Below are positions 18,109 to 59,695 of a DNA stretch of 64,000 nucleotides, in pieces. A program made the position numbers and the translations under genes. The stretch comes from Brachionus koreanus (lineage: Eukaryota > Rotifera > Eurotatoria > Ploima > Brachionidae). Numbering within the stretch: position 1 is the first letter of the stretch; the number at the start of each line of letters is the position of its first letter. The stretch is from NCBI GenBank assembly GCA_016987375.1, contig PJRA01000114.1:342633-406632 (forward strand), written 5' to 3'. The notes beneath the pieces were generated by a model. The model was given only the letters and a program-made list of their open reading frames with translations. It searched no databases and was not told where the DNA came from.

Positions 18109-21100
18109 TTATCTAAAAAATCTTTTGACTTTTGACTTTATAATCGATTGCTCATTTGAACAAGCTTTTCTTTTGTATTTCGCTTTATCTTTACTATTCA
18201 ACCATTTATCTGACTTATGGTCATTGTTTGGTTTGCTTTTTGAACTTTTTAGATTAGAACGCGCACTAAAATCAACAGTATCTTTTGAATTAACTGATGC
18301 CTTTAAATTTGAATAATGTTGAAAAATTTTTAAAAATTCATTTCCTTTATAGTTATTGAATATTGCTTCAGTATAACCTGTAATTCCCAATAAGGCTTCT
18401 TTATCAGTAGGTAATTGAGTGAGCATTTCTTGAATCATCTTTCTGGTAAAAATCAAATTTACATTATCTATTTTGTGCTCGATTCCAAGAGATTTTATCA
18501 ACCGTTTGAGTTCACTTTTGCATCTACCCAAAATTAAATTAAAATCTTTTGAATTTTTTTCTTTAACCAAAGACTCATTATTTTCTAGAATTTCTTCAAC
18601 ATCGCTGTCGTCTGAATGTTGGGATTCATAATCTAAATAGCAAGTAGAATTTTTTTTTGGCATTATTTCATCTTCAATCAGCTCAAATTCAAATTTAAAA
18701 TTTCTAGCAAAAATCTCGGATATTTTTGGACCTGGTCTAACATAACATGCAACTATCTCAGAACTTTTGATTACTTTGAGTTCTTCTTTTAGATATCCTG
18801 AGAAAACAAGCTTCCTGAGAAGCCTTTCAATATCACATTTTTTAAATTGATCCATTTTGGAATGAAATTCGAGAGTGTGATGATTTTTTTCTACTATCTT
18901 TGAATTGAAAGAGCCTTTTAGAATGTCTGCTAAATGAAGTAAAGTAATGTCCTCACGTAAACATATATGTTTGATTGAATTGCATATAAACTTCACTTTT
19001 TCGGTCATGTCTATCGATTTTGATTTTTTTGTTTCGAGTAATTTGCAGTTATCACATATGGTGTTCATTTTGGAACGAATACATTTTTCTCGATTAAATA
19101 TTTCACCAAAATACTCCAAAATTTGAGCTCTTCTACAGTCTGTTTGATTGTCACAATATTGAGCTACACGGCGAACGTTATCCACATGTGTTTCATAGGC
19201 TATTGAGTTCTTATTTTTAATCTCAGCAGAAATTATTCGAAGCCATCTTTGTCTATCTTGGTTGTTATAAAATAAAACACAAAGAGCTTTGGATCCATCT
19301 CGACCAGCCCTGCCAGATTCTTGATAATATCCCTCTAAGGATTTCGGAAGACTCAAATGAATAACATATTGAACATCGCTAGATACAAAATTTAATATTA
19401 AATAGTTCTCAAAATTTTAAAATTGTAAAAAATAATATTTATTTTAAATAGTTAATTTTTTTTTATATAAAAGACAAAAATCAAGTTTTTTTAAAAGAGA
19501 AAAAATTTTAAATTGAATTGCAATTTAAAAAACTAAAAAAAAATAACTAAACCCAAAAAAAGACTATAAAAAAATTGATTTTTCTTATTTAAATAAAAAT
19601 TTTAAAAAACTCACGGTTTATCAATACCCATGCCAAATGCTATGGTCGCACAAACAACTTTACAATCAATGTTATTCGTCCATTTGTGTTGAATTTGTTG
19701 TCGTTTTTGATCATCCATTCCAGCATGATATGGCAATGCTTTTATTTGTTTTTTCCTCAAATATTCACTCACTTGCTCGCATTCATTTCTCGAAATGCAA
19801 TAAACAATTCCACTCTTGTTTGCATACTTGCTCTTAATCAAATCGGATATTTTCTCCAAAGCAGCTGCATTGCTGGTCTTGTATTCGACTTGATACTGTA
19901 AATTTTCTCTATTAAAACTTTGCATGAAAAAAACACACTGTTGATTATTAGCTGGTAAGCTATTCATGCTTACTGACATGTAATGTCTATTGTTCAATTT
20001 TGTTTCCAATTTATTCATTTGATTGTTTTGAACATTTGTCACAAAAGCACTTTTAAAAGCTGACTTATTAACTGAAGCTGTCTCGCTCACACTCAACTTC
20101 ATTTGCATTAAAATGTCATTTCTTACTCTTGGTGTAGCAGTTGCTGTCAACAACATGCAAGGAACATTGGGCATCAAAGTAAATCTCAACTCGCCAATTT
20201 TCTTGTAGTCTGTTCGAAAGTCATGACCCCACTGAGACACGCAATGAGCTTCGTCAATTACCAAACGTGCTATCATGCCACGATTGTACAAATTCATTAC
20301 AACATTTCTCAGCTTAGAACTATTGTTCAACTTTTCTGGTGTTATATAAACAAGCTTGTATTTTGGCTCTTGTTTTACCAACTCTTTGTAAACATTATCA
20401 CATTCAGCAGACGAATCAGCATCGCTCAACATGTGACATGCACTTAGACCAAGAGCATTCAATTTTTGCACTTGATCAATAATCAAACTCTTCAACGGCG
20501 ATATCACAAATGTTACACCTTTTGATATTACTGCAGGCAATTGATAGCACAACGACTTGCCGCCTCCTGTTGGCATCAAAATAAACACATTTATACCCAA
20601 TAGAGCTGCATTCACTGCTTCAAATTGTTGTGGACGAAAATGCTTTAGACCGAATGAGTTGCGAAATATTGTCAACATTTCGTCTGTGTGTTCATATTCT
20701 GTTGATCTAAATTGATACGAACAATCTTTTATGTCATTAAAAAGCCAATTTATTTTTTCATATCGTTCTATATCTGGTATGTAAACCCCTTTGGTTTGTT
20801 GATTATTTAACATTTGATCATTTCTATTCTTTGTATCTATTGAATCAAAATCAAACTCTTCAATAACACATAAATCTTCGTCATCCTCATCTTCTCTTTG
20901 AAAATTAATCACTGTCTCTTCCAATTTTTGATCTTTTTTAGTTTTTTTTTCAACCTCTAAATCTTTTCTGTTTTGTTTATTAGTTTTTATATCTTTTTCT
21001 CTTTTTTCCAATGCTTTTTTCTCAATTTCAGCTAATTGCTCAAAATCTATTTGAATATCTTCCAATTCTTCTTCTTTTGTCTCACATTTTTTACATGGTA

Positions 21101-21648
21101 TTTTTTTTACAATGCAACTATAACATGATCCATGTCCACATTCATCAATTAGTCTGCGTTTTGCACTTTTTGAACTATACTTACATTTGCATGAAAGACA
21201 TATTTCTTTATCATCATCTTCACTCAGTCTTTGATTTACTAAACAATTAATTTCATTTTTTTCTTTCCTTAATAATTAATCTTTTATTTAATAATTTTAG
21301 TTGGTTTTAAATTTATTAAAAATACACATATGGTTTCACGGTGGCAACTGGTTTTTGAATAATGCAGTTTTCTTTTTCTAATTCATTATATTTCATGGAT
21401 ATCCAGTCATTGTCAAAATCATCACTCTTCAATTCATCTATTAAATAATTGTTTTGACTTAAAGCATTTTCCTCGATTGGTTTCAAACATTTTTCGTTTA
21501 TATTTATTTCATAGTTATTTTTTTTTTGATTATTATCAGTTTTTAAATTTTTCGCAATTTCTTGCGACCTTTGTAAATCAGACAGCGCTTGGCATTTATT
21601 TGAAACAAGTTTTGGTGTGGTTGACTTAAATTTAAATATACGATCCAT
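18109..21648 (-). CDS. BLM: BLM-type RecQ helicase A with N-terminal RING-like finger
   Basis: Three exons join in phase: 21326-21648, 19615-21267 and 18109-19378, giving 1081 residues; introns are 58 and 236 bp. Residues 131-169 hold a C3HC4 pattern: C131-x2-C134-x16-C151-x-H153-x2-C156-x2-C159-x6-C166-x2-C169. Then come an acidic linker and the RecQ core: GGGKS Walker A (Lys345), DEAH box (446-449), TATAT motif III, and FGMGIDKP split from DVQYVIH by the second intron. SLPKSLEGYYQESGRAGRDG is motif VI. The RQC zinc site is C740, C758, C767, C770; an HRDC domain lies at about 940-1016, and the end is basic. Overall order and motifs are those of BLM, which unwinds recombination intermediates in the nucleus. 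An insertion of about 45 residues follows motif III. The core exon is identical to that of the divergent neighbour; the ends are not. The first splice junction was chosen by phase and is the least certain. Confidence 0.85.
19568..20891 (-). repeat. inverted repeat arm 1: helicase-core tract
   Basis: This 1.32-kb tract is the reverse complement of 27414-28740. Every stretch compared matched, and chance antisense frames of 74, 71 and 66 codons are identical in both copies, which requires nucleotide identity. The tract starts at GATGAGGATGACGAAG in the coding direction and ends about 50 bp inside the following intron, at a T run. Confidence 0.9.
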
Positions 21649-21863
21649 TTCCTAAATTTCTACAGCTTAAATTTGACTTAATTTTCAGTTTGATGATCTT
21701 AAATGAAAAATAAATTTAAATAATTTAAAAAAATATATATTCAAAATTTTATTATTTAAAATTTAAGCAAAATTAACTTTCAAAATTCAAAAATTTAAAA
21801 TTAGAAAAAAAAATCAAATTTATTTTGAATTTTAGTCAATAAATGTAAATATTTTCCTTCTAA
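21649..21863. promoter_or_regulatory. shared divergent promoter region of the two BLM-type genes
   Basis: Only 215 bp separate the two start codons, so both genes presumably share a bidirectional promoter. The region is almost pure A/T with no recognisable element. Assignment rests on geometry only. Confidence 0.5.
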
Positions 21864-24800
21864 ATGGAAAGAAAATTTACTTTTAAAAAACCTGGGAAAT
21901 CATCGTCGGAGATTGCATCAATATCGTCTCTCACATCTTGTTCTCTAACGTCAACTAAATCAAATACCAATGTACAAAAAAGTTTTATTGGGACAAAAAA
22001 TAATGAAAACATCCTCCAATCTGTATCTACTACAGCTAATCTATTAAAACAATACTCTCCAGAGGATAATAATAAAATTTCCAAGTTAGTCAGTATTTTT
22101 TTTTTTAAAAGCAAAATTAATATTTTCATCAAATTAGAAAGTATAATTTTTAAAAATTTTAATCAACCTAAGTTTTTAATTTCAATCATAATATTAAATC
22201 TTTGAAAAGTTTTATGCATACCTAGTAGACTTTTTAATTTTAAGTAATTTGAGTAAATTTGAGTAAATTTGAGTGAGTCATTAAGTGTTCCTTACAAAAT
22301 TCATCTTCCTTTTCGAAAGGCCAAGTTTCAATGAAGATCCGGCACTGTCCTTTAAAAAATTTAGTTGTTTTTCTTAGCTTTATTGAAATTCTTCTTTTTT
22401 TTTATAACTTTTGCCTAGCTAAGATTTTTTAGATTCATAGCTTGAAATCATTGACAAATATTTTTTTTTTACCTAAATTGATGTTTAAGTTCATTTTTAA
22501 GCACAATTTAATTAAACAAGTTAATTTCATCAAGGCCCTTAACCATTTTAAACATTTTGTATTAAATTATTTCTAAGTCTTCTAATTTTAATTGTTGTAA
22601 AATTTAGTTATTACAGTATTTTTTTGTAGGATATTCTTTTGATTTCATGTACAAGTCCTGTTGTTCGTCTTTGAATGACTTCCATGGTGTTTATGCCTTT
22701 CTTCAAATAAGGTCTACAAATTTTAACTTCATACTCAAGATGATTTCTGACACAAGCTTGGTACAGTATTGATACTTAATCCTTATTGAGAAATTTAAAT
22801 TAGTCATTCCTAGAACATTATTTGCTTTTTTGATCAAAGAATTTTTGTGAGTTGTACACTTTAAGTCTTCAGATATTGTGACACCTATTTGTTTTACTTT
22901 AACAAGTCTTTAAAATTATATTTAGTAAGAATTAATAAACCATATTGGCCTTTAATGCCGCAAATAATTTAAGTTTCATGTATAGTTAAGATGAAAATCA
23001 TGATCGCAAAATCTACAAAAATCTTAAGTTTCAAATTATTTTTAATTATTTTCAATATAAAGATAATGCATATTTATCAACTAAAATATAAAATAGAAAG
23101 CTTGATATTTAAAATAAATTAAAGCTTCTAAGCTATACGGATTAACATGATGATGAGTAGAGTGTAAAAATCTTTAGATAAATCTGATTAGTATTTAAAT
23201 TAGATTTTTGAATTGGGAATTTTTAACTAATCTTTAAAAAAACTACAAAAAATCTGTAAAATTTTTTGACTGGGCATCGTTATTCCTAATTTAGTATCAT
23301 CTGCTTTTAATTCATAAAAAGTGCTTACTTTATCAGTTAATTCGTTTATATATATATGATAAAAAGTAATGGCCCTAAGACGGATTCAAGTGAAACACCA
23401 CTTGAAATTTATGTCCAAGCTGAAGCTGTGTTCCCTTGTACTTTTCTCTGTTTACGATTATTAAGATATGATTTTATTAAATTTGTAATGTATTAGGGAG
23501 TTAATAGAAAGACTAGTTATAACTATTACTTTATTAAATAAAGATAAAGAATAATGAATAAAGAATAAAGAAAAGTATATAACAATAAAGTTGAGTTGCT
23601 TAAATATGGAATACAGTACGTGACTAGATTTCCAAATAGAATAAAGAGGCAACAACAAATTGCCAAATAAGGTAAAATGAATTTTAATAAGTTATGGTAA
23701 ATAAATTATTCAAAACATCAACTATTTATTTATTTAATAAATTTGAGGTAAACCTCAGGCCACACAGAATGGAACTAAGTCCTTCTTTTCAGCCTAGCGA
23801 TTGAGAAAATGAATATAAATAAAAAAATTTGTGATTTGGCAGTCTAAAGGATCAGTTATTTAACACGTTCTTAAATTCTTCATAAAGTGAGCGAAGTTGA
23901 AAAACAATCTAGATCTTTGATTAATTGCTGATGTTCTACTCGCTTCAAGAGGAATTTATCTAAAAGTAATTTTGTTCTAGGAGCAACCATGTCAATTTTT
24001 AAATAATTGTGGATGTTTGTAATTCTCGTCTTCAGTGGGAAAAACTTGATGTGTCTCAGAATTCGGTTTTGCATTTTTTGTAGATCACCGGAAATTTTTT
24101 GAGTCGAGCTTGAAAGAGGGATAAAAGCATAGTCAAATTGTGATCGAATAAAATTTCTAAAAATGATTTTGCTTAGGAGAATTGAATTAGAGAGTTTTAG
24201 TCCTTTTATCCTCCGAATAAGGTTGATTTTAGACATGACTTTTCCGCCTAGACTTTCGATTAATTTTTTGAAGTTGAGCTTTGGATCGAAAAATTTTTAA
24301 TGCCTAAAAAATTTGGAAGTGGGTCTAATGGGACTACTTGATTTCCGATTGACAAATTTAGCTTGTATTTTGTTTCATAGTTGTGTCTGTAGCCAGCTTT
24401 AGTGAAAACCGTGTGGAAAGTTTTGTTGGTGTTTATGACAAGTCCCCATTTTTTGCAGTAATTTATAATTCGAAGAATGCTTAGGTTTAGTGTCTTTTCG
24501 GTTACTCTTAGAGATTTGTGTGAATACCAAATACATAAGTCATCAGCAAACAACGCTAAGTTTACCATTTTTGGAATGACATTAGCAATGTCGCTAAAAA
24601 ACAATGAAAAAAGAGTTGGTGATAAGCAGCTTCCCTGAGGAACTCCAGTCGAAATTTCGAATTCTTTGGAGAGTTTATTGTTTACTGAAACGAGGAATTT
24701 TCTATTAGCCAGGAATTGTTTTTTCCATTCGAACAGATACCAATTTAATCCTAATTTTCTAAGTTTGAAAAGAATTCCACTATGGGATGCTTTATCGAAA

Positions 24801-27800
24801 GCCTTTTCTAGGTCAAAAAATACTGAACTTGTGAATTCTTTTTTGCTGAAACCAATGATTATTGATTGACTTAGACGAAATATTTGATCTTGGGTGCTCA
24901 TGTTCTTTCTAAATCCAGATTGGCACGGTGGAAGTAATCCTTTGGTTTCGATCCAGTTTTGAAGCTTGCAATTAATAATTTTTTCCAGCAGTTTAGAGAT
25001 GCAGCTAATTAAGGAGATTGGCCAATATGAATTCAAATTTTCTGGAGGTTTATACATCAACTAATAATATGACAAATTTACTTTTTTTACTATCAAGACC
25101 ATATTTTTCTTATTTAAGTAAGTTTTCTAAATATAGAAAGTAACTTATTGTCTATTAGCAATCTGATTATGCTATAGTTACCACTGAAGAAATTGAAACT
25201 TCTGCTATCAAATATCGGAGTTGAGATCTGGTTGGTCATAAGCATCCAGCTTAATAAAATATGGCCTCTATTTAAACCCCCTAGAGGTAGCTTGTTGACT
25301 ATGTTTGCAACTCTGTTTTCGCAAGAGATAAAGATCAAATCTAATGTATTGTTTGTACAACAATCTAATACCCAAAAGGTATGTTCAGCAACCATCTGGC
25401 ATCTGGTCAAGGAGCAGTCAAACACGTTATCTAAAAAGAATGACATTTCTTTATCGTGTGGAAATATTTAAGGATATCCATTTTTTGATCATTTTATAGC
25501 TGGATAGTTAAAGTCCCCACAAATGACTACAGTATTAAAGCAATATGAAGTCACAGGTTTACTAGTTTCAGCTAGAAGTATATTAATGTTTCTGTTAGTA
25601 TGGTTTGAACTGTTTGCGGATCTATATACACAGCTTTAGTATATTATTTTGACCATTTTGGATTGAGCATCAAATATTTTCAATAATGTCATCTTTCAAG
25701 GCTCAAAAAAGATATTTGGAGCATGCGGTGAGACATTAAGAGAGACAGTTAGAATTAAATTTCTACCTAATCATTTAGTAAGCAAGAACCAGCCTTTCGC
25801 GTTCCACCTGCTTTGGGTCTATTTAGAAAATATTTTTTAGACAGTTTTGTTCGGATAAGATTTTTGCCTTTTTTTATTAAAATAATTAATTCTTAAAAAA
25901 TATATGTTTTTTTATATCTTACTCAAATATATGTTATCTATTATATGTTTATTAAGAATTTTTTTACATGGTACAATATAAGACAAAGGAATAAGATATT
26001 AAAGCTAATAAGGGCTTTATTTATTTTTCTTTATTTTTTTTACAAATCTTCATATTTATTTTCATATAATGGGTTAAGAGGTATAATGAAAGCTAAAGAC
26101 ATTCATACAAAGCCACTCTTTGTTGAATGAACACAATGATAAAATTCCATTGATTATTAATTAAAGTTTTTTAGTCAAAAACTAGAAATATTAATTCAAA
26201 AAATGTTGAATATGGGTTATTTAACACTCATAACCCGGTGAGGTTTTTCGACCTTTTGTGTTATCTTTTCTTTTTAATTCTTAAAAGCATCTTAATATGT
26301 GCATATTTAGCAATAAAAATAAATTCATTTTAATATTTTTTGATTTTAGATTTCTGATTTAAAAAGAAAATTTTCTAGAAATAAATTGAATTTATTTAAC
26401 TAGAAATAAGCAAAAGATGTGACATAAAGCACTGAAAAAAACCCTCCGATTTAAATTAAATTAATTTTTTTTATTGAAAATCTTAATCAATTTTATACTT
26501 AACTAGCGCAAATACTAAAATATCTGGTTCTGAGCTCATAAAAAATTTGGAAGACGAAGAAAATAAAAAATTAAGAAAAATAACTAATCAAACAATTGAT
26601 AAATCACAAACAATTCATCCGTTTTTTGGACAAAAACACAAAACAAAAGAAAATTCTCAACCAAAAAAACTTATTTTCGAAGATAACGATGAAAAGGATT
26701 TTATCAAAGAACCAAAAAAAGAACCACTCAAACAAGAAAATACCGATTTTTTTCAAAAATCAATAAAAAAATTCGAAAATGTAAATCTACCTATTCTTCA
26801 CCATACTGAAATAAAAAAAGAAAATGACACCAATTCAAATATTCAACGACCGAAAGAAGAAGTTCTGTTGGACCACAAAGAGTTTTGCCCATCATGTAAA
26901 TGTAAATATATGTCTACTGGTGCCAAGAGACGTCTAATAGATGCCTGTGATCATGGAGCATGCTTTAGCTGTGTAATGAGGCAAATAAAATGTGTAGTTT
27001 GTAAACAAATGGAAAGCGAAATTAAAGAAGAAAAAAAAACTGAAGACCAGATACTTAAAGATGCTGGATTAAGCTTGGAATTAATGGAAAGCATAATGGA
27101 ATCACCCGAAAAAAATATCAAAGCCGAAATAATACCTGATTCACCAATAGTATTATCAGCTAAAAAAAAGTCATATAAGAATGATTCAGATGAAGAATTG
27201 GCCGATTTAAAACCTTTAAAAGTTTCTTCGAGTATTAAAGAATTTGAAAAAGCAGATAGAATATCAAATCAATATAAACAAGCAGAAAAAAAGGTTATAA
27301 ATGAAATAGAAATATTTGAACTGGAAGATGATTTTAAATCATTGAACAATACATCGACACAAATAGCAACAAAAAATAATGGATTAAAAGAATATGATGT
27401 GGAAATATATGATGATGAGGATGACGAAGATTTATGTGTTATTGAAGAGTTTGATTTTGATTCAATAGATACAAAGAATAGAAATGATCAAATGTTAAAT
27501 AATCAACAAACCAAAGGGGTTTACATACCAGATATAGAACGATATGAAAAAATAAATTGGCTATTTAATGACATAAAAGATTGTTCGTATCAATTTAGAT
27601 CAACAGAATATGAACACACAGACGAAATGTTGACAATATTTCGCAACTCATTCGGTCTAAAGCATTTTCGTCCACAACAATTTGAAGCAGTGAATGCAGC
27701 TCTATTGGGTATAAATGTGTTTATTTTGATGCCAACAGGAGGCGGCAAGTCGTTGTGCTATCAATTGCCTGCAGTAATATCAAAAGGTGTAACATTTGTG

Positions 27801-30634
27801 ATATCGCCGTTGAAGAGTTTGATTATTGATCAAGTGCAAAAATTGAATGCTCTTGGTCTAAGTGCATGTCACATGTTGAGCGATGCTGATTCGTCTGCTG
27901 AATGTGATAATGTTTACAAAGAGTTGGTAAAACAAGAGCCAAAATACAAGCTTGTTTATATAACACCAGAAAAGTTGAACAATAGTTCTAAGCTGAGAAA
28001 TGTTGTAATGAATTTGTACAATCGTGGCATGATAGCACGTTTGGTAATTGACGAAGCTCATTGCGTGTCTCAGTGGGGTCATGACTTTCGAACAGACTAC
28101 AAGAAAATTGGCGAGTTGAGATTTACTTTGATGCCCAATGTTCCTTGCATGTTGTTGACAGCAACTGCTACACCAAGAGTAAGAAATGACATTTTAATGC
28201 AAATGAAGTTGAGTGTGAGCGAGACAGCTTCAGTTAATAAGTCAGCTTTTAAAAGTGCTTTTGTGACAAATGTTCAAAACAATCAAATGAATAAATTGGA
28301 AACAAAATTGAACAATAGACATTACATGTCAGTAAGCATGAATAGCTTACCAGCTAATAATCAACAGTGTGTTTTTTTCATGCAAAGTTTTAATAGAGAA
28401 AATTTACAGTATCAAGTCGAATACAAGACCAGCAATGCAGCTGCTTTGGAGAAAATATCCGATTTGATTAAGAGCAAGTATGCAAACAAGAGTGGAATTG
28501 TTTATTGCATTTCGAGAAATGAATGCGAGCAAGTGAGTGAATATTTGAGGAAAAAACAAATAAAAGCATTGCCATATCATGCTGGAATGGATGATCAAAA
28601 ACGACAACAAATTCAACACAAATGGACGAATAACATTGATTGTAAAGTTGTTTGTGCGACCATAGCATTTGGCATGGGTATTGATAAACCGTGAGTTTTT
28701 TAAAATTTTTATTTAAATAAGAAAAATCAATTTTTTTTATGTTTTTTTCTCCTGGAAATTAAATTTAAGAATTCTTTCTTTTAGACTAATTTTTTTTATT
28801 TGATTTTTATTCCTTAAAATTAATGCTACACCAACAGTATTACATTATTTTTATTACAAAAGTTATATAAACAATGATAAATGAGCATAATTAATCATTT
28901 ATATTTTTCTTTTAAATTTTAATGATAAAAATTTTTCATCAGCTGATACTTCCTTCCTAAATGGTTGAGTTTATAATTTTTTTTTAGAAAACACCCGAGG
29001 TGTCTGAAGATCAATTCTTGGTTTAATTTTTACCTTGGATTTTTAAACTAAATGTCACCTTACAAACCTATTTTTGTTATTACTAGGTTTCGATTTCTTT
29101 TTCACCTGGAGAAAATACTAATAAATATGTTGCTCTATTCTTTGAAATTTTTTTTTCTATTTTTATTTTAATAATTGACAAATTAAAATGACAAAAATTT
29201 TTATTCTATTTAAGGGATGTAAGGTATGTTGTTCATTTGGGACTTCCAAAGTCACTAGAAGGCTATTACCAAGAATCTGGCCGTGCAGGACGAGATGGTG
29301 GAGTTTCGCTGTGCTTACTATTTTACAACAACCAGGATCGTCACAAATGGCTTCGTCTTATGCAAAATGAGCAAAAAGGTGCCAGTTACAACCCTGTGGC
29401 ATACAAGACACATGTTGATAACATTTATCGCATGGCCCAGTATTGTGACAACAGGACAGACTGTCGCCGTGCTCAAATACTCGAGTATTTTGGCGAAAAG
29501 TTTGACAGAACTAAGTGCATAGAGTCTAAAATGAAGACCATCTGTGATAATTGTCAATTATTTGCAGAAAATAAGTGTTCGCTAGTTGATATTACAACAG
29601 ATGCTGCCATTATTTGCCGCGGAATTCAACAACTATCTTTTAAAGATGATATTACTTTGCTTCATTTGTCTGAAATTCTGAAAGGGTCAATGAACTGTAA
29701 GATCACGGAAAAAGGCCATCATAATTTGGAAATGCACGCCAAATTGTCTAAGTACAAAAAAAATGACATTGAAAGAATAGTTAGAAAATTAGTTTTTCTA
29801 GGATATTTAAAGGAAGATGTAAAAATTTTACAGCACTCGGAAACAGTCGCCTCTTACATTAAAGTAGGACCTAAAGCCAACCAGCTTATATCTAATTCTG
29901 CTAAAATAGAATTTGAACTTATCGATGATGGTACTAAAACGAGCAAAAAATGCAAGGTTGTTGATGATTCAGATGACGAACAAAATACAACTAAAACTAG
30001 CAAAAACAACAAATTAAGTGATTCATCTGCAATCAATAGAATTTTACTTCGCTGTCAGAGCGATATTAAACGTCTCATAAAGACCATTGGTAGCGATAAA
30101 GGTGTCAAAAATATGAGCAGTTTGTTTACACCAAAAATGTTGAGCGAAATGTTGTCCCGTCTACCAGAGACAAAGGAAGATCTATTGTGCATAACTGGAT
30201 ACACACAGTCTGTTTTTTCCAACTATAAGGGTGAAGAATTTTTGACTATTTTTAAACACTATGCGCGAATAAAGCGTGAAATTCAGCAAGAGGAAATAAA
30301 AAAAATGGAACAAAAACAAAAAGAAAAAGCCAAAGCACGAGCAATCCAATCTCAGGCTTGCTATAAAAACAACAAAACTTATGGCTTAATTGACGAAAAT
30401 CAAGTGGCAGACATAGATTTTGATTCATCCAAATGGTTGACTAGTAAGCCAAGTAGCTCTGGATACGAGGGAAAAAATTTTAAGAGAAAAAATTTTTCTA
30501 AAAGTTATCCGAATAATAAAAAAGCTAAAACTTCTTATGACACAAACGATGAAAATAGTAGTAATTATTTTAATTCGAATCAGAAAAAAAAATTCTACTT
30601 TAAAAATAAAGCCAAATTTAAAAAAAAGTATTGA
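21864..30634 (+). CDS. BLM: BLM-type RecQ helicase B with N-terminal RING-like finger
   Basis: Three exons join in phase: 21864-22084, 26507-28690 and 29215-30634, giving 1274 residues. The first intron (4422 bp) is inferred from a phase match (TCC AA|gttagt to ctag|C GCA) and from the gene's mirror layout; no Met opens the second exon. A PIP-box-like TIHPFFG lies near residue 110. A C3HC4 pattern spans 201-239: C201-x2-C204-x16-C221-x-H223-x2-C226-x2-C229-x6-C236-x2-C239, with the same spacing as copy A. Walker A Lys488, DEAH from 589, motif VI GYYQESGRAGRDG, RQC zinc site C885, C903, C912, C915, and an HRDC domain at about 1075-1150 follow. The C-terminus is very basic (runs of K/R/N), a likely nuclear signal. 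Outside the identical core the protein is only moderately similar to copy A. Confidence 0.82.
22625..23420 (-). pseudogene. LINE remnant in helicase B intron 1
   Basis: On the minus strand, decayed reverse-transcriptase motifs are visible: SLESVLGPLLFIIYINEL and ADDTKLGI (from about 23400 down), and a tail with LEYEVKICRPYLKKGIN and IQRRTTGLV (about 22750-22640), matching the LEY-x-V-x-x-W-x-P-x-L block of CR1-like elements. Stops and deletions separate the blocks. It is antisense to the helicase gene. Confidence 0.7.
23880..25830 (-). pseudogene. nearly full-length decayed LINE (endonuclease + RT) in helicase B intron 1
   Basis: Reading on the minus strand from about 25830: a GPKAGGTRKAGSC trace and VVICGDFNYP (about 25520), the GDFN motif of APE-type endonucleases; then NNTLDLIFIS and a degenerate N-R-G-H (25446-25114); then a 266-codon reverse-transcriptase frame (25060-24260) with FFDLEKAFDKA, STGVPQGSCLSPTLF and FADDLCIW; then, after a frameshift near 24250, the C-terminal helices (24236-23880). 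The frame breaks show it is inactive. Its RT motifs place it among Jockey/CR1-like non-LTR elements. Confidence 0.8.
26222..26455. repeat. degenerate piggyBac-like MITE candidate
   Basis: TTAACACTCATAACCCGGTG at 26220-26240 has the TTAA-CACT start of piggyBac-like ends, and GAAAAAAACCCTCCG followed by TTTAAATTAA near 26434-26460 could be its decayed partner. A similar single end lies at 51411. The pairing is imperfect. Confidence 0.3.
27414..28740 (+). repeat. inverted repeat arm 2: helicase-core tract
   Basis: This is the mirror copy of 19568-20891. It includes the helicase motifs from the acidic linker to FGMGIDKP and about 50 bp of the intron, where similarity ends in a T run of different length (8 here, 7 in the other arm). 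Both outer and inner flanks diverge abruptly. Confidence 0.9.
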
Positions 30635-31747: not shown

Positions 31748-32650
31748 ATGTCTCACATATTTGAGGAAGGAAGATTCTTTGGTTGCTATTTATTATGTAG
31801 CACTAATCCGAAGTACAAAGGACGTACTTATATCGGTTTTACTGTTAATCCAAATCGACGTATAAATCAGCATAATTCTGGCTACGCAAAAGGAGGTGCC
31901 AAAAGAACAAGTGGCAAAGGCCCATGGGACATGGTTCTCATAATCCATGGATTTCCCAATGAAATATCAGCTCTGCGTTTTGAATGGGCCTGGCAAAATC
32001 CTGAAAAATCTCTAAGACTAAAGCATCTAGTGCCTTCCACCAAACAGTATAATTTTGTTTCCAAATTCAATGTGGTGTGTGAAATGTTGCGCGTAGGGCC
32101 TTGGTGTAGGCTTCCACTTACCATTAGATGGCTAAGACAAGAATACAAAAAAGAATTTCCTATTAGTAAACTGCCACCACCACACATGCCTATTGAATTC
32201 GGCCTTGTTCAAATTATCCCCAAATCAAAGAATAAAAAGTTTTTAGCAATCGAAAATGAGCATATTCAGATGTCACAAGCCCAAATAATGATTGACATCT
32301 GCTTTATTTGTGAAATGAATATTTTAGAATCTAGTCAAGATATTTTAAATAAAAATTTAGCTGGACTTAAGTGTATCAATTGCATGATACCATATCATAC
32401 AATTTGTTTGTCAAAACATTTTATAAAATCAAGTAACTTTGAATTGCTACCAATCGATGGTAATTGTTTAAAATGTAGTGTTCATTTAATGTGGGGTGAT
32501 TTGATTAAATTTAGAAATAGCTTTTACAGAATGACCAATTTCGTTGATGAGGAGACAAACTTTAATGATGATGAGTATGAAGAAGAAGATAGCTTTTTCG
32601 AAAAGGATGAGGACGAGGACAAAGAAGAAACAACAAGCTATTTAGATTAA
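31748..32650 (+). CDS. SLX1: SLX1 structure-specific endonuclease, catalytic subunit
   Basis: A single coding exon of 300 codons opens with ATG four bases after an acceptor-like TTTTCAG. Residues 10-90 form a GIY-YIG nuclease domain: GCYLL (Tyr14), RTYIGFT (Tyr28), the RRINQH stretch (Arg37/38), and FEWAWQ with the catalytic Glu79. A Cys/His zinc module follows at about 195-265 (CFICEMN, CINC-x4-YH-x2-C, CLKC), then W-G-D-L-I-K, as in SLX1 proteins. The C-terminus is strongly acidic. With the scaffold SLX4 the enzyme cuts branched DNA such as Holliday junctions and flaps in the nucleus. Length is in the usual range. It lies 1.1 kb downstream of a BLM-type helicase, a partner pathway, though linkage may be chance. 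Confidence 0.93.
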   Translation: MSHIFEEGRFFGCYLLCSTNPKYKGRTYIGFTVNPNRRINQHNSGYAKGGAKRTSGKGPWDMVLIIHGFPNEISALRFEWAWQNPEKSLRLKHLVPSTKQYNFVSKFNVVCEMLRVGPWCRLPLTIRWLRQEYKKEFPISKLPPPHMPIEFGLVQIIPKSKNKKFLAIENEHIQMSQAQIMIDICFICEMNILESSQDILNKNLAGLKCINCMIPYHTICLSKHFIKSSNFELLPIDGNCLKCSVHLMWGDLIKFRNSFYRMTNFVDEETNFNDDEYEEEDSFFEKDEDEDKEETTSYLD

Positions 32651-36482: not shown

Positions 36483-39400
36483 TTACGAGTTTGTTCTCAA
36501 ATTGTTTGTTGAAGCAATTTTAGGTAACTTGGTATGCTTGTTGCCAGTTTGATAATCAGAATCGTTTCTTGTGCTGATATTCACCGTTGTATTTGCTGTG
36601 TTGTTGAGTACGTTTTGACTTCCGTGGCCCAATTTGGGAGCTAAATTATTCCGATAGGCAGCTGAGGATCTGCGTGACGGAGGGGGATTCTCACTCGGAG
36701 GCTTGGGCAATCGGCGTCTAAGCCAGGGATGTCTAAGCGCTTGAGAAGGCGTCATACGAGTGGCAGGGTCCCATTCAAGGCATTTCTTTAAAAAGTCAAT
36801 AAAAAACTGATCATCGCAGCCCTTGAGTGCAACAGACCAATCTTTTGATCCAGGCACGCCTCTGGGCTTGCCACGTCTTGATCTACCCCCTTGTAGCGCA
36901 GTTGATCCGTCCGGCAAAGTAACTAAAGTGCAGTATCTCGGATAACCTTTGGAACTTATAAAATTTCGAGCGCGTTTAGATTGGTCCACAATTTTTTGTG
37001 GAGGCATGCCGACAAGTTCAATAATGCATGCCAACTGATCGGCCTCATCTTCGCCCGGAAACAGTGGATAGCCGGTCAGAAGTTCGGCGATAATGCAACC
37101 CAGACTCCACATGTCGATGGGCATGCCGTATTTGGCTCCTAGAATCACCTCTGGCGCTCGATAAAATCTTGATTGAATGTAGGTATAAATTCGTTGATGT
37201 TCATAGCAGCTTGAACCAAAATCAATGACTTTTATGCCACTTCTGCCTTGCTGCTTGAGGAGTATATTCTCTGGTTTAAGGTCACAATGGATAATTTTGT
37301 TTTTGGTCAACGCATCCAAACACTGTAAAATGGAATGTGTGAATTTGCGCACCAATTGTAACGAGAAACCAGCGAACTTATTTTTTTTAATAAGCTCGTA
37401 CAAATTCATTGACAATAGCTCAAAAGTGATGCATATATGATTTCGAAAGGTAAACGACTCGTACATGTGTATGCAATTGAACGTGTTATCCTTATCTTGT
37501 CTGCGCAAGTGTTCCAGTATGCGAATTTCTTCTTGAGCTTGCCGGTGAAAACGCTTCTCGTTACGTACTAATTTTACGGCTACATGATTACCAAGTTTGT
37601 GGTCATAGCATTTTAGTACTTGGCCAAAGCTTCCCTTGCCTTTAAATTAAATATTTTAAAAATCTAACAAAACTAAAATTTAAGATACAATTTATTTATT
37701 AATAAAATATTTATTTTAGATATGAATTTGAATTAACAAATAAGAAAAAAAAAACTAAATCAATTTTTATCTTATTGTCTTAGATTTAACTAATTACAAC
37801 TTATTTATCTATAAAACGCAATTTATCATTAAAAATATAAAAGTAAATTACTTGAATTAAAATAACTAAAATAAAAAAAAAATTAGAGCATCAAAACAGA
37901 AGCGAAAATTTCGTATTTTTTCTTATAAAATAGGAATTGATTTAAAAAAGTAAATTTAACTAAAGAATTAGTTCATTTTTTTAACAGATTTATGGGGATT
38001 TGAATTGAAAAAAAGAAGAGAATGAGTATTTAATTATTTTTCAAAAAAATTTTTAAATTAATCAAAAATTGTCAATGTTCATGCAAAATGAATCATTGAG
38101 TTTGAAGTGAATTTTACTAAAAAATCAAATTGATTTATTAGAAATTGAACTGATTTGTTTCATGATGAAATTAGATAAAAATTGCCAAAAATATTTTCTT
38201 TTTAGAAAGATTAAAATTAACGACAAAAACATGAAAATTTTTATGCACCTAAAAGACAAAAAAATAAGACATAAGTCATAATGAAAAAATTGGGAAACTT
38301 TTTTGCTCAATTTGTATTCATTTCCAAGTCAAACAATTCTGGATTATTCAAAAAATTAATTTTGAGGGAAAATTTTTAATGCTTGGTGTTATTTGTTCTT
38401 ACATATTAAAATCAATCTATTCAGATTCTAATGAATTATAAGCATATTTTTTTGCTTTAAAAATATACATAATCTTATAAACATGACAATATTTAAAAGA
38501 GACATTTAATTATTTAAAAAAAAGAACAATTTTTAAAAATTTTAATTTTCAAAAAAAAAATAGTTTCTAAAATTATAAGAATTAAGTATGCTAAACAGAT
38601 TAAAAACGATTTTCTATGTTATGCTTTAGGTCTGAAAAAGCCAAAAGCAAGAGAATAAAAATTACTTTACATAAATGCACCGGTACTTAGGATCCTAGAA
38701 CAATCCAGGTCACCAGCGCCTTTTGAAAGATGTAAAAACATTTTTTTCACTTTTTTTTCGTTTTTTTTTTACTTTTTCAAAGGCGCCTATTTTCATGTCT
38801 GTTGGATTTTTATAGAGGACACTGAACTCTTGAATTAGAGCCGTTGGTTTCTCATCTAGCATTTAAATTGGCCAAATTGCAAAGATCAGAAATCTTTGCA
38901 TTTGGCTGAAAATGACTTGCTTTTAAGTGACATAACTTAGTCAATTTTTAAGCTTTTTTCGAACTGAAAAAGTCAGGACAAACAGGCATTTTATTAAGTC
39001 AGACCACAATAGCTTTATTCTCAATTTGATTTATTGGAAAAACAATTACAGATTCGAATTATTAAAGACTTTTATCAGTATAATATCAGTATAGCGAGAT
39101 GTTTATTCTAAAAATATGCATTTATTTACTCTCAAAAATTAGACATTTAAACATTACTAAAATTCAATCAGAGGCCAACCCAACTCCAACCAAATTTCAA
39201 ATAATAATTTTTTTAAATTAAATATTTAAAATGAGTGAAAAAAATTTGACTCTTTTAATATTTCTAGATAATGTAATTGAAATCTAGTTTTTATTTAATT
39301 TGATAGAATAAAATGCATCTTTTCAATTCATCAAAAAAAATTGAAAATTTCTTAATTAAGTGAATAAGCGTGCATACTGCCTACACAGCTTTTTTAAACT

Positions 39401-42400
39401 TAATCGTTCCTAAAAAAACTGTGATGCCAGGTATCATTTTTTTACCAATCGAACTGCCGGGTATTGGAATTTACTTGATGATGCAACAAGAAAAATAACC
39501 GATACAAATACTTTTAAAAAAAGATTAGATAAATTGCTCAATTTAAACTGACAGTTAAAAAATAGTACAATTTATAAAACCGTCAAACAACAGCGCCACA
39601 GGATGTCATAGCAGAGCGTTTATTGATATTGCTGCTTAGGATACAACAATCCCTACAGCTCACTACTACTACTACTAAAGATTGAGTAAATTTTTTTTTA
39701 GATTGATAGATTTATTTTTTGTTGTTTCATGAATTATATTTTTATCAGTTTAATCAGAATGTAAACAAATATCCAATGCAGAGATATGACATATATTTTT
39801 TAATTCAAATTTAACCCATTCTAGGCAACATGAAGTTTAGTACGATTGTACTATTGGGTTAGAAATTAATTTCCAGGCTGAGTTTTTTACAGCGGATGTA
39901 CAAATTTATGTACAGAGTATACATGAAGTTTTTTTTTGGTAGAATGAAATTTTTTATTCTGATGGACCCTCATGTTTCAAATATAGGGGCTAAAATTTTT
40001 TTTCTTTTTTTTAATAAACTACTAGTACGATTGGTTATTTTGCTAAAATAGAAGTTTGTAAACAATGTACAATATTTTTTGTACAAAATTTTTGATGACC
40101 CTTGAATCGTACAAATTTTTACTATTCAAAGTAATTATAATAAAAAAATAAAAAATATTTTTTTTTTTTAAATTTTAAGAGGGTCTAAAATTTTTTTCTT
40201 AAGCTGTACTCAGGGTGGGTATATACAAAAAGTATGTGTTGAATCGTTAGCTTTTTTCATCACGAATAGTACTGGAATCGTACAGTACAATCGTACTATA
40301 CTTCATGTTGCCCCCATTCTATAATTTAATTGAAATTAACTTAGTCACAACACGTAACCTCAATCGTAAAGCTAATTTAGAATAAAAAATATTCACAGTT
40401 TTTCTAACAAAATGTAATTAAATTTGAGACATTTTACCTTTAAATAGATTTTTATACAACTTGCTTTTTATGTATTTATTAAGCAATTAAATCTGCCTTA
40501 AAGGTTTAAAAAAAAATATTCAAAAAAGCTTGCAGACTGTTTTTTTTTTTTCGAATATTTTTCTATTTATCTTTTTTTTTGAATATGAAAAAATAATAAA
40601 AGCAAATAAATACCTAAAATCTTTAGTATTTCAAATCTGTACAAAATATGGTCATGTTGTACTGGTTTGTAGCTACCATTTTCATCATCGTAGCCATTGT
40701 TGTTAGCGCCTCCAATAACTCCGTGTATTTTTTTGGCATTTTGGCCAAGAAAATAAATCTCAGGATAATTGAAAATTTCATGGTGTTCGAAAGGCGTCAA
40801 TTTTTGCATATAATTTTTCATTGCTGTTTCAGGCGTCATTGGTTGCACAGTTCGCTTCATATTTGTCGAATTGAGGTGCTGTTGGATCGAGAGAGATGAA
40901 TTGGCATTCAAATTACTGACATTGTTATTGTTGGTGTTTGTCTTGTTGATCATGGATTTATTGCTATTCAGACTGTCAACCGAAGGACTTTTGTGTCCGA
41001 TTTTTTCCTGCGTTTCTTTCAGATTCGTTGTGTTAAGGCTTTGGTTGTGATGGCTGTGAAGGTGATGCGAGTGGCTCAGGTAGCTTTTGTGAAGAGTCGA
41101 GCTATCGTACAACTGTTGGACCTGAATGCCGTTGCTCGAGCTCGAGTTTCGGCCATTTCGCACCCCCGATGTGGCAATCGTCGCATTCAAATTGGTCGAG
41201 CTGGTGTTCGCGTTTATGCCACCGGTGCTCGCGTACAGCTTGTTCGCACGTGGTTTCAACGGCGGCAATGTGGTCGAGTTCATATCAGTCAAATACAAGG
41301 TCTGGTCGCCACTTCCTTAAAAATCAAAAAACAAATATTAGTTTAGATAAAAGAAAAAAAAAGAAATTTTCTATTAATTAGTTAATTAATTTTTTTGAAA
41401 ATTATGTTCGAGTTTAAGAACGAGCATAAAAATAGTTGCCATCGAAAAAAAAAGACTCGTGTTGCTAGCGAATAATAATATTATAATTCTTTGGAAAGTA
41501 TTGTCGCTTATTCAATAGTTTTTATGGTTTGCTTGATTTTAAAAAATATTTTCTAGCTATTAAACAAATAAGTAATAAAAAATGAGATGTTGTCAAATCA
41601 TTTTCTCAAACTTTTTATAACCTGCTTCTCGAAAATAAGAAAAAAATTTAATTGAATTTGTCAACTGAATGAATGAAATTTGTTTTGAATCCATTCAGCG
41701 CTTGCTTGCTTGCTTGAAAAAAGTCTAATTAAAGAATATATACAAAACCTTGAGCATTGCTTATCGAGCTCTGTCGGGCTTAGCCTGAGGTAGTTTAAGA
41801 TGTTTGAAAAAAAAACAAATATCACTATTATATAATTAATTAAAGGCATTTGATTTTGTTCTCTATTTACACAGATGCTGGCAATGCTCTGTTTCTGTTC
41901 AGAAGCCTAACCTTTGCTTTAATTAAAAACGGATCTGAAAAAATCTAATTATTAACTCAAGCGTTTAAAATTCATTTGTTTAATGACCGCATATGTTAGT
42001 ACTAATTAAATAATTGACTAAGCCTAAATAGGTCTGTATTTTTTGAAAAAAAAACTCATTAGCTTTTTTTATAATTTTGATGATTTTTATATAAGGACCG
42101 AACAAGGGTGAAATCTTTTTTTTTTCGAACCAAAAAAGTACATTATAAAATGTGGAAAAAAACACACAAACCTGTTTTCACAATAATTAAAATATTAGTT
42201 AAGCTAAATTTAAAATTTAAATTCAAAAACCTTGGTGATTTTTTAAAGGCTTTAATTTAGTCGAAAAATAAAAATTCAACTTTATTAGACTAAATTTTAT
42301 TAGGTTTAAGAAGAAAAATTTAAAGAATAAAAATTGAATAAAATTCAAATCTTAAGAGTCCTTTATTTTTCTAAATCACGTCCTCAATTTTGCTAGAAAA

Positions 42401-54837: not shown

Positions 54838-57800
54838 TTAGACTTTAGAATTGGCAATTTCATTTAGTTCAGTTGAATTGTTACGGGTGATATTCTTGCT
54901 AGGTACTTCAACAATTTTTCCCAATTTGTTCTCATATATTAACAACGCTTGATCGACATTTGATTTTTTATCATTATTGTAATACTTATTATGGTCATCT
55001 TGTTCGATATCATGGACGCTATTTACTGTATCATAAGATCCTTGATACAAACTACTGTTTGAACCGTCATCTTTCCTAATAACATTGTTTTGGTTGCCTC
55101 TTGGATCTGTGGGAACATGACCAGCATCAGAAATATGCGAGTCATTAGCCGATGAAACAGCAATAGCAACTCTTTGATTTCCTCCTTCAATCAAAATTAA
55201 ATAAATTTTTTTGATTTTATTTATAAAAAAATTACCATCAATTTGAGTATAATTGTATTTTTTTTCCTGATTTTTACGTCTCTCGCAAGCGTATTTTACC
55301 TTTCGACTTCTCAAAATTTTGCTAATCGGAGTTGGCATAGCCTCAATTTGCAAAATGCTTCTTGGTAATGGAAAGGTTTTTGTCTCAGGCAAAAAAAGAG
55401 TCATACTGCCAAAAAAAAGAGTCAATAAACAATAACTTAATTGGGCTTTTTCGGATGTATAGGCAAGCAAGTCTGGTGAAGCAATTGCACTTCCGATCAT
55501 CTTCATTGCAAAACACAAGCCAATACCTTGACACCTCAGACTAGTTGGAAACAATTCTGCAGTAATCAATAGCAAGAAAATGAATGCGAATTGAGCCGAA
55601 AATTTACAAAGATAATACAAGACATTTAAAGTAACCAATGAGTCACTATCTTGATCACCATTTAAACTGATAATTAGAAATCCTAGCAAACAAACTTCAA
55701 TGACAAGATAAGCTAAAAATATCATCCAACGTCGTCCAATTCTTTAGAGAATTTCTTTTAAAAAAATGTGATCAAATTTTAAAATCTTTTACTTGAAAAC
55801 AGCAAGAACTGCAGCTAGAATACTGGCGACCATTATGGTCAATGTTGACATTGCGTCATGAGTATAAATGTCCATTTCTGATTTATTCTTAACAACTTCA
55901 ATCGACTCAGTAATTCCATTAGTGAACCTAAAAGAATAAAATTATTGATTTATTTTTAATTGTTTTTTTCTTTTTTTTTTTATTTACCAAAGACCAAACA
56001 AAATCAGCACATAAACAAACATAGTTGGAGAATAGATGAAATCGAATGGTCTATAAATGGTATTGGTGCTTCGATAAGATTCACCTTTGAGCGAATTCAA
56101 AAATCTTCTGAATTTTGAATTGTTTAATTTTTTCTTTTGTATTTCGGCCATGTCAACTTGTGGATACTTTTTGCCCAATGCATCGAGATCTTGTAGTCTT
56201 AAAAGCGGCAAAATGTCCACTTGAGTGGCTTTGCTGTGCTTTGCATGCAAAAAATCTTTGGCCTCCTTGAATTTGCTTTCAAACAAAATGCCATTACGCT
56301 TGGCTAACTTGGTCAATACCTGAATGGCTTTGTCATACTCTTTGTGGGCCAAATACCAAAATATTGATTCGAAAGCAATCCAGTTCAATGCTGCAGTGAG
56401 TAAGATTGGAGAGGTGACAAATATCTGCAGCAATTTCCATGATTTAAAGCTTTTAGCCAACCAGGGCAAAAGAAGTTGGAAAAAACAAACGACAACGTGG
56501 AAAAAAACTCCGTAAAATGTTCGAAAACTTATGGGAAACATCTCAATGATTGCAGGCAAAAATGAAGCCTGGACACCTCCGATAAAGAGACCAATGAAAA
56601 ATTCAAAGAATACATAGGATATAAAATCGTGTCCGACTAGCTGAAATACGGACATTACACCTGTGGACCAAATGCATGCCAAAATTATCATTTTTCGTCC
56701 GCCTCTGTCTGAAGTAAATCCCAGTAAAGAACTTCCAATTATAAAGCCAAGATAGTGAGAAAATCTGGGAACTTTGGTAAAGTTTTGCAAATCACACAAA
56801 ATGTCGTATTCAGTTGCCACAGTTTCGCCATATTCTAATGAGTAATTTAGTTTAAATTCTATCGATCCATTGTCAATCAAATATTTTCCTTTTCCAGCCA
56901 AGCGCTGAATTACTGAATGGTTTTGGTATGTTGAATTTTCTGTTTTGGAGTAATTGCAACTTACATTTGATGGTTGTAGCACTAAAATATAACAAATTTA
57001 ATAAATTTTTTGAATTTTTAAATTTTATTTAAAAAAAAAATATTTAAAAAAAATAATTTTAAATTTTATTTAAAAAAAAATTTCAAATATAAAAATCTTA
57101 ATTCTACTTTTTCTATATCAAATTATTGTTAATATTTTCAAAAGATAATTTAATCCATATCTTTTAAAAATAAATTTAAATATTAACTAGTTAGAATAAA
57201 AAAAAATGCCTCCTTTTGATGTAAAATAGAATAGAAGTTTTTGATTCATGTAAAGAATATGTCCGATGATCATAAACTTTTATGACCAGATAATTTTTTT
57301 TCTAAACATACAAAATTTACTCAACAATAACTAAAATACCGTATTTTTTCGTTAGATTCGATATACTGAACCACAAGCTATGACAACCTTTTGGACCATT
57401 TGCAAGAAACTAAATTTCGCCAATGCCGTTTTTAATTTTGAATGCATGGTTTAATAGCGGTACCACAGATATAGGTCCGCATCAAACCATAGAATTTTTT
57501 ATTTTTGATTATCAAGACTTGAATTGAGAACAAAAAGTTAAATAAGAAAAAAATCAATTTTTCTAATATTTTTTTTTCTTAATATTTAATTCGGCAACAT
57601 GAAGTATAGTACGATTGTACTGTACGATTCCAGTACTATTCGTGATGAAAAAAGCTAACGATTCAACACATACTTTTTTTATATACCCACCCTGAGTACA
57701 GCTGAAGAAAAAAATTTTAGACCCTCTTAAAATTTAAAAAAAAAAAAATATTTTTAATTATTTTATTATAATTACTTTGAATAGTAAAAATTTGTACGAT

Positions 57801-59695
57801 TCAAGGGTTATCAAAAATTTTATACAAAAAATATTGTACATTGTGTACAAACTTCTATTTTAGCAAAATAACCAATCGTACTAGTAGTTTATTAAAAAAA
57901 AGAAAAAAAATTTTAGCCTCTATATTTGAAACATGAGGGTCCATCAGAATAAAAAAAATTTTATTCTACCAAAAAAAAAACTTCATGTACACTCTGTACA
58001 AAAATTTGTACATCCGCTGTAAAAAACTCAGCCTGGAAATTAATTTCTAACCCAATTGTACAATAGTACAATAATACAATCGTACTAAACTTCATGTTGC
58101 CATTTAATTCTGCACCAAATGCGTAATTCAAAAAAATTATTTTTATTTTATGTTTTAAATTCGAGTCTTGATAATGCATTAAATCAAAAATTTCATAATG
58201 TAGATGTAGTTTGGTGCATGGTCCGAAGGCATGCTTCGTTCTTTTATGTAGCTTGTGGAGAAACATAAAAAAACGAGGATACGGTATATTTAATATGTCA
58301 AGTAAATCAAAGTGTAAATTTTTTAAAATCAACAATTTATTTCAATGCTCTAGTTGATTATTTTAAGGAAAAAAATTATTTCTAGTAATGCTTGTTCTAG
58401 AACCATGATTTGGAAAGCGAGAAACATTATAATTTTGTTGATCATGTAGTTGACTATATTGAAGATCACGGAAAGAGGAAATAGCAAGCTAAAATAGTTA
58501 AAAAAAATAATTTTTATTGAAATAAAAATATTAAAAACACTTTTCTAATTGATTTAAATGATTGATTTTTATTTGAATAGAATAAGTTATTAATAAAAAA
58601 TAATTTTAACTAATTTATTTTCATATCAATTATTTATTTTATTTTATGATTAGGTAATTTTTTATATAACCCAAAATTAGAATGAAATCTTATTTATTTA
58701 TTTTTCTCATAAAAAATACGACTGAACTTAGGTAAAATTAAAAATAGAATTTTTTTCTCTGTTCTATTTAAAAAACGATTTTAAATTTAAAAAATTTTAA
58801 AAAATTTTTTATCTAAAATTTTAAAAAAATTTTTAACTAACTTTAAATTAATGATTGCTTTTAATTTTATTCAAAAATGTTTAGATATTAAATCAATAAA
58901 TTTCAGATGTTTTTTTTAGTTTAAAGAAAAATTTACATTAAAAAATGTTATGTTAATTCACAGTCAATTGTCCAAAGTTCAAATCTTTTATAACTAAATT
59001 TTTGATAAACTTAGTGCTGAGATCGAGAATATTTTTTAAGTTTTTAATTTTTAAAATAGTTTCACCTAGCTTTTACTATTTATCGAAATAATAGCAAAGT
59101 AAAATTTATGATCAAATTTCAAAATTTCAAACATGCTCAAAATTTATTACATGCGTAATTGATTGCATTGCAGGCTTCAGAATTTTTTAATCTTCAAATA
59201 CCATATTTTTAATTAATATTTTGAGCACATTTGAAATTTTGAAATTTGATCATAAATTTTACTTTGCTGAAATAATTAGAATCAATAAAGGACAAGTTAA
59301 GTAAAAACTAACATTTCTATTTCAAAGCGTATTAGTTAAAACTACGAAATCCTTTAATTTGTTTATTACATTAACTAAATAAATCTAAGAAAACGCTTTA
59401 GTTTAGAAATAAAAAAAATTTTTAGATATTAGCAATAGAGCTTAAAAACTTGGGTGCTTTGATTAGAAAGGACTTTTAATAAAAATTATTTTTTGATTTT
59501 CAACAAAAGACTAAACTAAAAAAAAATAAATAATTTACGTGTAAAATCATGAAGATTATGAATCCATCCGGCAATAATAGCATAAGCGAAGATGAGAGAG
59601 CAGTAAGTGATTAGCTGCCATTTTCCAATAAGACCATTGAATGAACCCTTCAAAGCATTGTCTGTATCAAATATTCGCTTGTTAACTACAGCCAT
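54838..59695 (-). CDS. SLC22-like: SLC22-family organic ion transporter
   Basis: Four main exons join in phase: 59539-59695 (ATG), 55988-56981, 55793-55927 and 54838-55741, 729 residues if read straight through. The last exon contains a 51-bp segment (GTAATTTTTT to TTGATTGAAG) that looks like an intron whose length is a multiple of three, so the usual product may be 712 residues. An N-terminal membrane helix precedes a long extracellular loop with several N-x-S/T sites and Cys residues. SDRGGRK (MFS motif between helices 2 and 3), and later FPTSLRCQGIG and LPETK, identify the SLC22 major-facilitator group of plasma-membrane organic cation/anion carriers. The C-terminal tail of about 150 residues is long, polar and Asn/Asp-rich. 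Substrate cannot be told. The first intron (2.6 kb) holds a 509-bp MITE. Confidence 0.88.
57593..58101. mobile_element. 509-bp MITE with 9-bp target duplication (copy 2)
   Basis: It begins GGCAACATGAAGTATAGTAC and ends with the near-complement at 58101, flanked by exact ATTTAATTC copies (57584-57592 and 58102-58110). The interior matches copy 1 at 39824-40312 in reverse complement, with small indels. It lies in the first intron of the SLC22-like gene. Confidence 0.9.
59093..59268. mobile_element. 176-bp foldback MITE with 8-bp target duplication
   Basis: AGCAAAGTAAAATTTATGAT at 59093 continues into arms of about 50 bp that are almost perfectly complementary to the end at 59268. GAAATAAT is duplicated exactly on both sides (59085-59092, 59269-59276). 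Eight-base duplication fits hAT, P or Merlin types; the ends do not decide. It is intronic in the SLC22-like gene. Related arms occur at 10781-11074 and near 52780. Confidence 0.85.

Follow-up and report, generated by a model that had tools for sequence, protein, structure and literature searches.

Introduction

The mammalian gene pairs DDX19A/B, TUBG1/2 and BMP8A/B show mosaic concerted evolution by gene conversion (PMC2720389). According to the accessible part of that source, these are old pairs in which some exons together with introns have been homogenised in several lineages while others diverge, and BMP8A/B is an inverted pair. The locus presented here, an inverted pair of BLM-type RecQ helicase genes (gene A and gene B) in the rotifer Brachionus koreanus, resembles them in these points, with conversion in more than one lineage being a possibility here. 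However, the converted parts of the mammalian pairs have no clear relation to functional domains, whereas the tract shared by A and B takes up most of the helicase domain. The same part of the source also does not describe the unconverted parts of those pairs as being as diverged as the flanks found here, which are saturated or nearly so. Another rotifer, the bdelloid Adineta vaga, is known to have several diverged BLM copies that carry a RING/U-box domain at the N-terminus (PMC6264785), and a RING-like finger is also present in A and B. The A. vaga copies are allele pairs and ohnologues, though, and the accessible part of that paper does not describe an identical core between diverged copies. 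We found no published report of the B. koreanus pair in a search of paper-library titles and abstract openings, a search outside of which most subscription papers lie. The underlying process, mosaic concerted evolution, is already known, and the A/B case is an unusually clear instance of it.

Results

Structure of the two genes

We refer to the whole 64-kb stretch of DNA that was analysed, C22:342633-406632 of the assembly, as the window. Gene A lies on the reverse strand (18109..21648; exons 21648-21326, 21267-19615 and 19378-18109) and encodes 1081 aa. Gene B lies on the forward strand (26507..30634; exons 26507-28690 and 29215-30634) and encodes 1200 aa without its first exon, which we looked for and did not find. 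The translated model of gene A is identical over all residues to the deposited Brachionus koreanus Bloom protein P0002. For gene B there was no full-length match among the 120 best of 7879 protein matches; the best of these was the record of gene A itself, with a coverage of 65% at 79% identity.

Both proteins contain DEAD, Helicase_C, RecQ_Zn_bind and RQC domains above the Pfam cut-offs. The HRDC domain reached 21.0 bits in the protein of gene A, below the Pfam cut-off of 23.8. In that of gene B it gave no Pfam match at E 0.001; the alignment to the BLM structure 4cgz spans the HRDC region. The named best matches in the protein search (among the 120 best of 7879) were BLM proteins, and of the 133 PDB sequences matched by gene B the top five were BLM entries. 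Judged by these similarities, A and B belong to the BLM-type RecQ helicases, with a putative helicase activity and a putative role in the dissolution of joint molecules. Within the assembly RecQ_Zn_bind was detected at three places, namely gene A, gene B and one place on contig C13. A search with the C-terminal exon of gene B yielded 13 candidates and, among these, five places; apart from A and B themselves, they were three weak matches of short length.

Ahead of the helicase both genes encode a RING-like Cys/His finger (gene A residues 128-170; the N-terminal part of gene B, region 26,880-27,000), and Pfam reported no such finger in either protein. By eye the same finger can be recognised in P0003, P0004, P0005, P0245 and the Seison protein P0009. 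The interval between the two arms, as delimited by the comparison of the window with itself, runs from 20895 to 27410 and holds the two diverged N-terminal parts and the intergenic stretch. In the latter we found a reverse transcriptase ORF (24260-25060, reverse strand; RVT_1, E 1.7e-30), and some of the sequence within 21700-26400 recurs elsewhere in the assembly (at least 48 matches, with 40 of 475 candidates scored).

Downstream of gene B, at a distance of 1.1 kb, there is a complete ORF for an SLX1-type structure-specific nuclease (31748-32650, forward strand; GIY-YIG and SLX1_C), so annotated from its domains. Gene B and this ORF are neighbouring genes, both for the processing of joint DNA molecules. 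Elsewhere in the window we noted a second inverted pair (39840-40312 and 57593-58069; 477 bp at 96.4%), probably a transposable element, a protein kinase ORF (36483-37508, reverse strand) and sugar-transporter-like ORFs (54838-56982, reverse strand).

The shared tract

At the BLM genes the BLASTN comparison of the window with itself gave one inverted pair, 19555-20894 and 27411-28748, with a length of 1340 bp and 99.6% identity. An ungapped alignment of A (20891 down to 19568) with B (27414 up to 28737) covers 1324 bp and contains a single mismatch, T at 20742 in A against A at 27563 in B, which is silent in a Leu codon. Thus 1323 of the 1324 bases agree between the tract in gene A (19568..20891, reverse strand), the probable recipient, and the tract in gene B (27414..28737, forward strand), the probable donor. 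The sequence-only reading of this DNA had placed an identical tract at 19568-20891 and 27414-28740, which matches our coordinates to within 3 bases. It had also described about 50 bp of identical intron and abrupt ends on both sides, and the base-by-base alignment bears this out.

The tract takes in the helicase exon and roughly 50 bases of the following intron, and the identity is gone within a few bases beyond either end. The 5' edge in gene A (20892..20903, reverse strand), defined by the loss of identity, adjoins a GA-rich stretch of acidic codons. The 3' edge in gene A (19550..19567, reverse strand) lies about 50 bases beyond the end of the exon, where the intron is rich in T and has a T-run. 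In terms of the protein the identical part extends from an acidic linker to the residues ..FGMGIDKP, which we take to be part of motif V, and continues for 50 bp into the intron. The residues QESGRAGRDG, presumably motif VI, belong to the next exon and lie outside the tract. The earlier suggestion that only the ATPase core was homogenised is thus slightly too broad, as the shared sequence spans most of the helicase domain and leaves out motif VI. Throughout the 83.3-Mb assembly (92 contigs) the tract occurs at two places only (2 of 2 candidates), and there is no third copy of the core.

Divergence inside and outside the tract

We compared the divergence of A and B inside and outside the tract with the Nei-Gojobori method. 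The N-terminal parts share 31.3% of their amino acids over 211 aligned codons (pS 0.633, dS 1.39) and the C-terminal parts 51.9% over 414 codons, with a saturated pS of 0.774. In contrast, the core is 100% identical at the protein level over 426 codons with a pS of 0.008. The latter value stems from two silent differences: the mismatch of the tract and, outside the tract, the third base of a Pro codon that the intron interrupts. As the sequence-only reading had stated, the two ends of the proteins clearly differ, and the comparison of synonymous divergence that it had called for separates the core sharply from both.

As silent sites and intron sites are identical as well, neither chance nor selection at the protein level can explain the tract. 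The presence of about 1.3 kb of common genomic DNA in otherwise old paralogues implies that one was recently copied from the other. The earlier proposal of a recent ectopic conversion between inverted paralogues is thus supported by the contrast at silent sites, by the inclusion of intron sequence and by the presence of just two copies in the assembly. Conversion from a cDNA template is disfavoured because the tract includes intron bases.

Relatives and a possible older conversion

Relatives were collected by three protein searches with the 120 best matches each, from which we used the rotifer-like pieces. Their N-termini are of two types. P0245 (B. plicatilis, partial, 446 aa) is A-type, with 107/215 residues identical to A and 58/198 to B, and P0003 (762 aa) is B-type, with 154/285 identical to B and 65/213 to A. 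Across the types the N-termini agree in 65/204 residues for A and B and in 58/203 for P0245 and P0003. In a 20-row tree of the C-terminal parts P0130 is the partner of A (100/100), and B clusters with P0125, P0126 (B. plicatilis), P0127 and P0128 (98/97); the three outgroup rows of this tree are long, the branch leading to the clade of A is long as well (0.82) and the branching near P0129 and P0134 is unsettled. Since the flanks at both ends group by paralogue, the duplication appears, from these protein comparisons, to predate the species compared.

The core behaves differently from the flanks. Over core residues 31-209 P0245 and P0003 are identical at 169/178 positions (94.9%), and each of them agrees with the window genes at 166/178. 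We estimated the core identity to be expected without exchange from 66 pairs of 12 BLM proteins chosen for having both parts; the pairs are not independent. An identity of the C-terminal parts as between A and B (190/339) predicts 65% for residues 31-209 and 68% for residues 31-424, and one as between P0130 and B (169/339) predicts 60% and 63%, respectively. The residuals of the prediction have a standard deviation of 4.8 and 3.5 points for the two ranges, and the largest are 12.6 and 9.7. The core identity of P0245 and P0003 is far above the ∼60-65% expected without exchange, which suggests that an older conversion took place. If so, the same part of the core would have been converted earlier too, in the B. 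plicatilis lineage or in a common ancestor, and there would have been at least two conversions; P0245 is partial and ends inside the core. What would be new here is this partial A-type protein from B. plicatilis whose half-core is almost that of a B-type relative.

The comparison with related species proposed earlier thus gave a mixed result: the proteins of the relatives point to an earlier conversion in this region too, but the core tree does not separate P0003, P0245 and the window genes. They form a group of four (90/93) with an unsettled order inside it. Across the first 31 core residues P0003 and B agree at 23/31, P0245 and P0003 at 21/31 and P0245 and B at 19/31. These counts do not establish a different 5' edge for the B. 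plicatilis lineage, and we rejected such an edge as evidence for separate conversions, as the linker is weakly conserved anyway. Both partial B. plicatilis records are interrupted at this part of the gene, with P0245 ending inside the core and P0126 starting at the next exon. A near-identical repeat at which an assembly came to a halt would give such a pattern, which is suggestive only.

Alternative explanations

There are several other ways in which two such cores could have come to be alike. One is an assembly artefact, in which one true core was entered at both loci or the consensus of one gene replaced that of the other. The assembly does have gaps, two of them inside the window, and to judge the background we inspected a 200-kb sample from one region of contig C1 (C1:1000001-1200000), where 30,975 bases are N. 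With thresholds of 1 kb and 98% identity this sample contains three pairs in direct orientation, which are 1.0 to 2.7 kb long and separated by 4.8 to 6.8 kb. For two of them the ends coincide exactly with N runs, and one of the two encloses ORFs of retrotransposon type; errors of joining or truncated repeats may account for some local duplicates in the assembly. Near-identical local duplicates of similar length and spacing therefore exist and call for caution, though they have another shape, being direct. Inverted pairs reaching 1 kb were absent from the sample. Furthermore the nearest N is more than 8 kb away from the arms, and both cores sit in frame between diverged, open paralogous exons, whereas a false duplicate would bring its flanks too. 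Gene A also equals a complete deposited protein, a record that may rest on the same data. The worry about an artefact raised by the sequence-only reading is lowered by the gap-free locus and by the diverged open exons that bound the identity, and it still remains; on this sequence evidence we regard an assembly error behind the tract as unlikely.

Slightly less probable still is a reciprocal exchange, in which crossing over between the inverted cores turned the 6.5-kb interval around. The present genes would then be swaps of N- and C-terminal parts, and the identity would stem from the crossover or from an earlier conversion. Inverted arms of 1.3 kb at 99.9% identity, 6.5 kb apart, would be suitable substrates for such an event. 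However, nothing calls for a crossover, and the deposited protein pairs its ends as gene A does, although it may come from the same assembly. Among the 120 best matches of each protein search, no relative covered an A-type gene at both of its ends. Purifying selection alone could be thought to keep both cores alike, as nearly every pair of the 12 BLM proteins is more similar in the core than at the ends. Yet the 66 pairs predict an amino acid identity of 65-68% where 100% was observed, and the silent sites and 50 intron bases are identical as well. The silent sites refute this explanation for B. koreanus, and it has practically no chance of being right.

Probable direction and proposed model of the conversion

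We thus favour ectopic gene conversion and consider it probable, at roughly 0.8, that A and B are old head-to-head duplicates which exchange sequence in this way, with a recent event of about 1.3 kb, most probably from B to A, and a probable earlier one on the B. plicatilis branch or in a shared ancestor. The direction is indicated by the 5' edge. B and P0003 are alike across this edge, and A has the acidic run of B where the A-type protein P0245 has other residues, which favours gene B as the donor; by this comparison gene B is most probably the donor and gene A the recipient. Codon usage was also considered as a sign of the donor and was discarded: B came out ahead by 7.3 log units and in 324 of 500 bootstraps, and the N-terminus of B itself was assigned to the wrong gene.

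A break in gene A would have been repaired by copying the nearby inverted gene B, and the copying would have halted where the similarity gave out. Mismatch repair together with BLM/Sgs1-type helicases rejects pairing between diverged sequences. The likely cause of the restriction would be that only this exon was similar enough to pair, the flanks being too diverged. Each conversion would renew the similarity of the core and keep it open to further exchange, while the flanks diverge too far for it. Carriers may be favoured by selection for a working helicase.

BLM-type helicases are themselves a brake on exchange between diverged sequences, which gives the case its interest and would at most hint at a feedback. 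One could go further and regard the pair as self-correcting: decay of BLM could raise conversion between its own two genes and so restore a working core from the better copy. We put this forward as a speculation that is very improbable. If it were true, the core would be a shared renewable module, with the N- and C-terminal parts left to specialise.

Ectopic conversion between A and B would present an unusually clean natural case, with a near-perfect tract of 1.3 kb, flanks that are saturated or nearly so, a gene product that governs such exchanges, and hints from relatives that the event has recurred. The pair makes two questions testable, namely the limit of divergence up to which paralogues can convert, and whether selection or similarity alone lies behind the restriction to the catalytic module. 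Trees built from the helicase domain of Brachionus BLM proteins would miss the old duplication.
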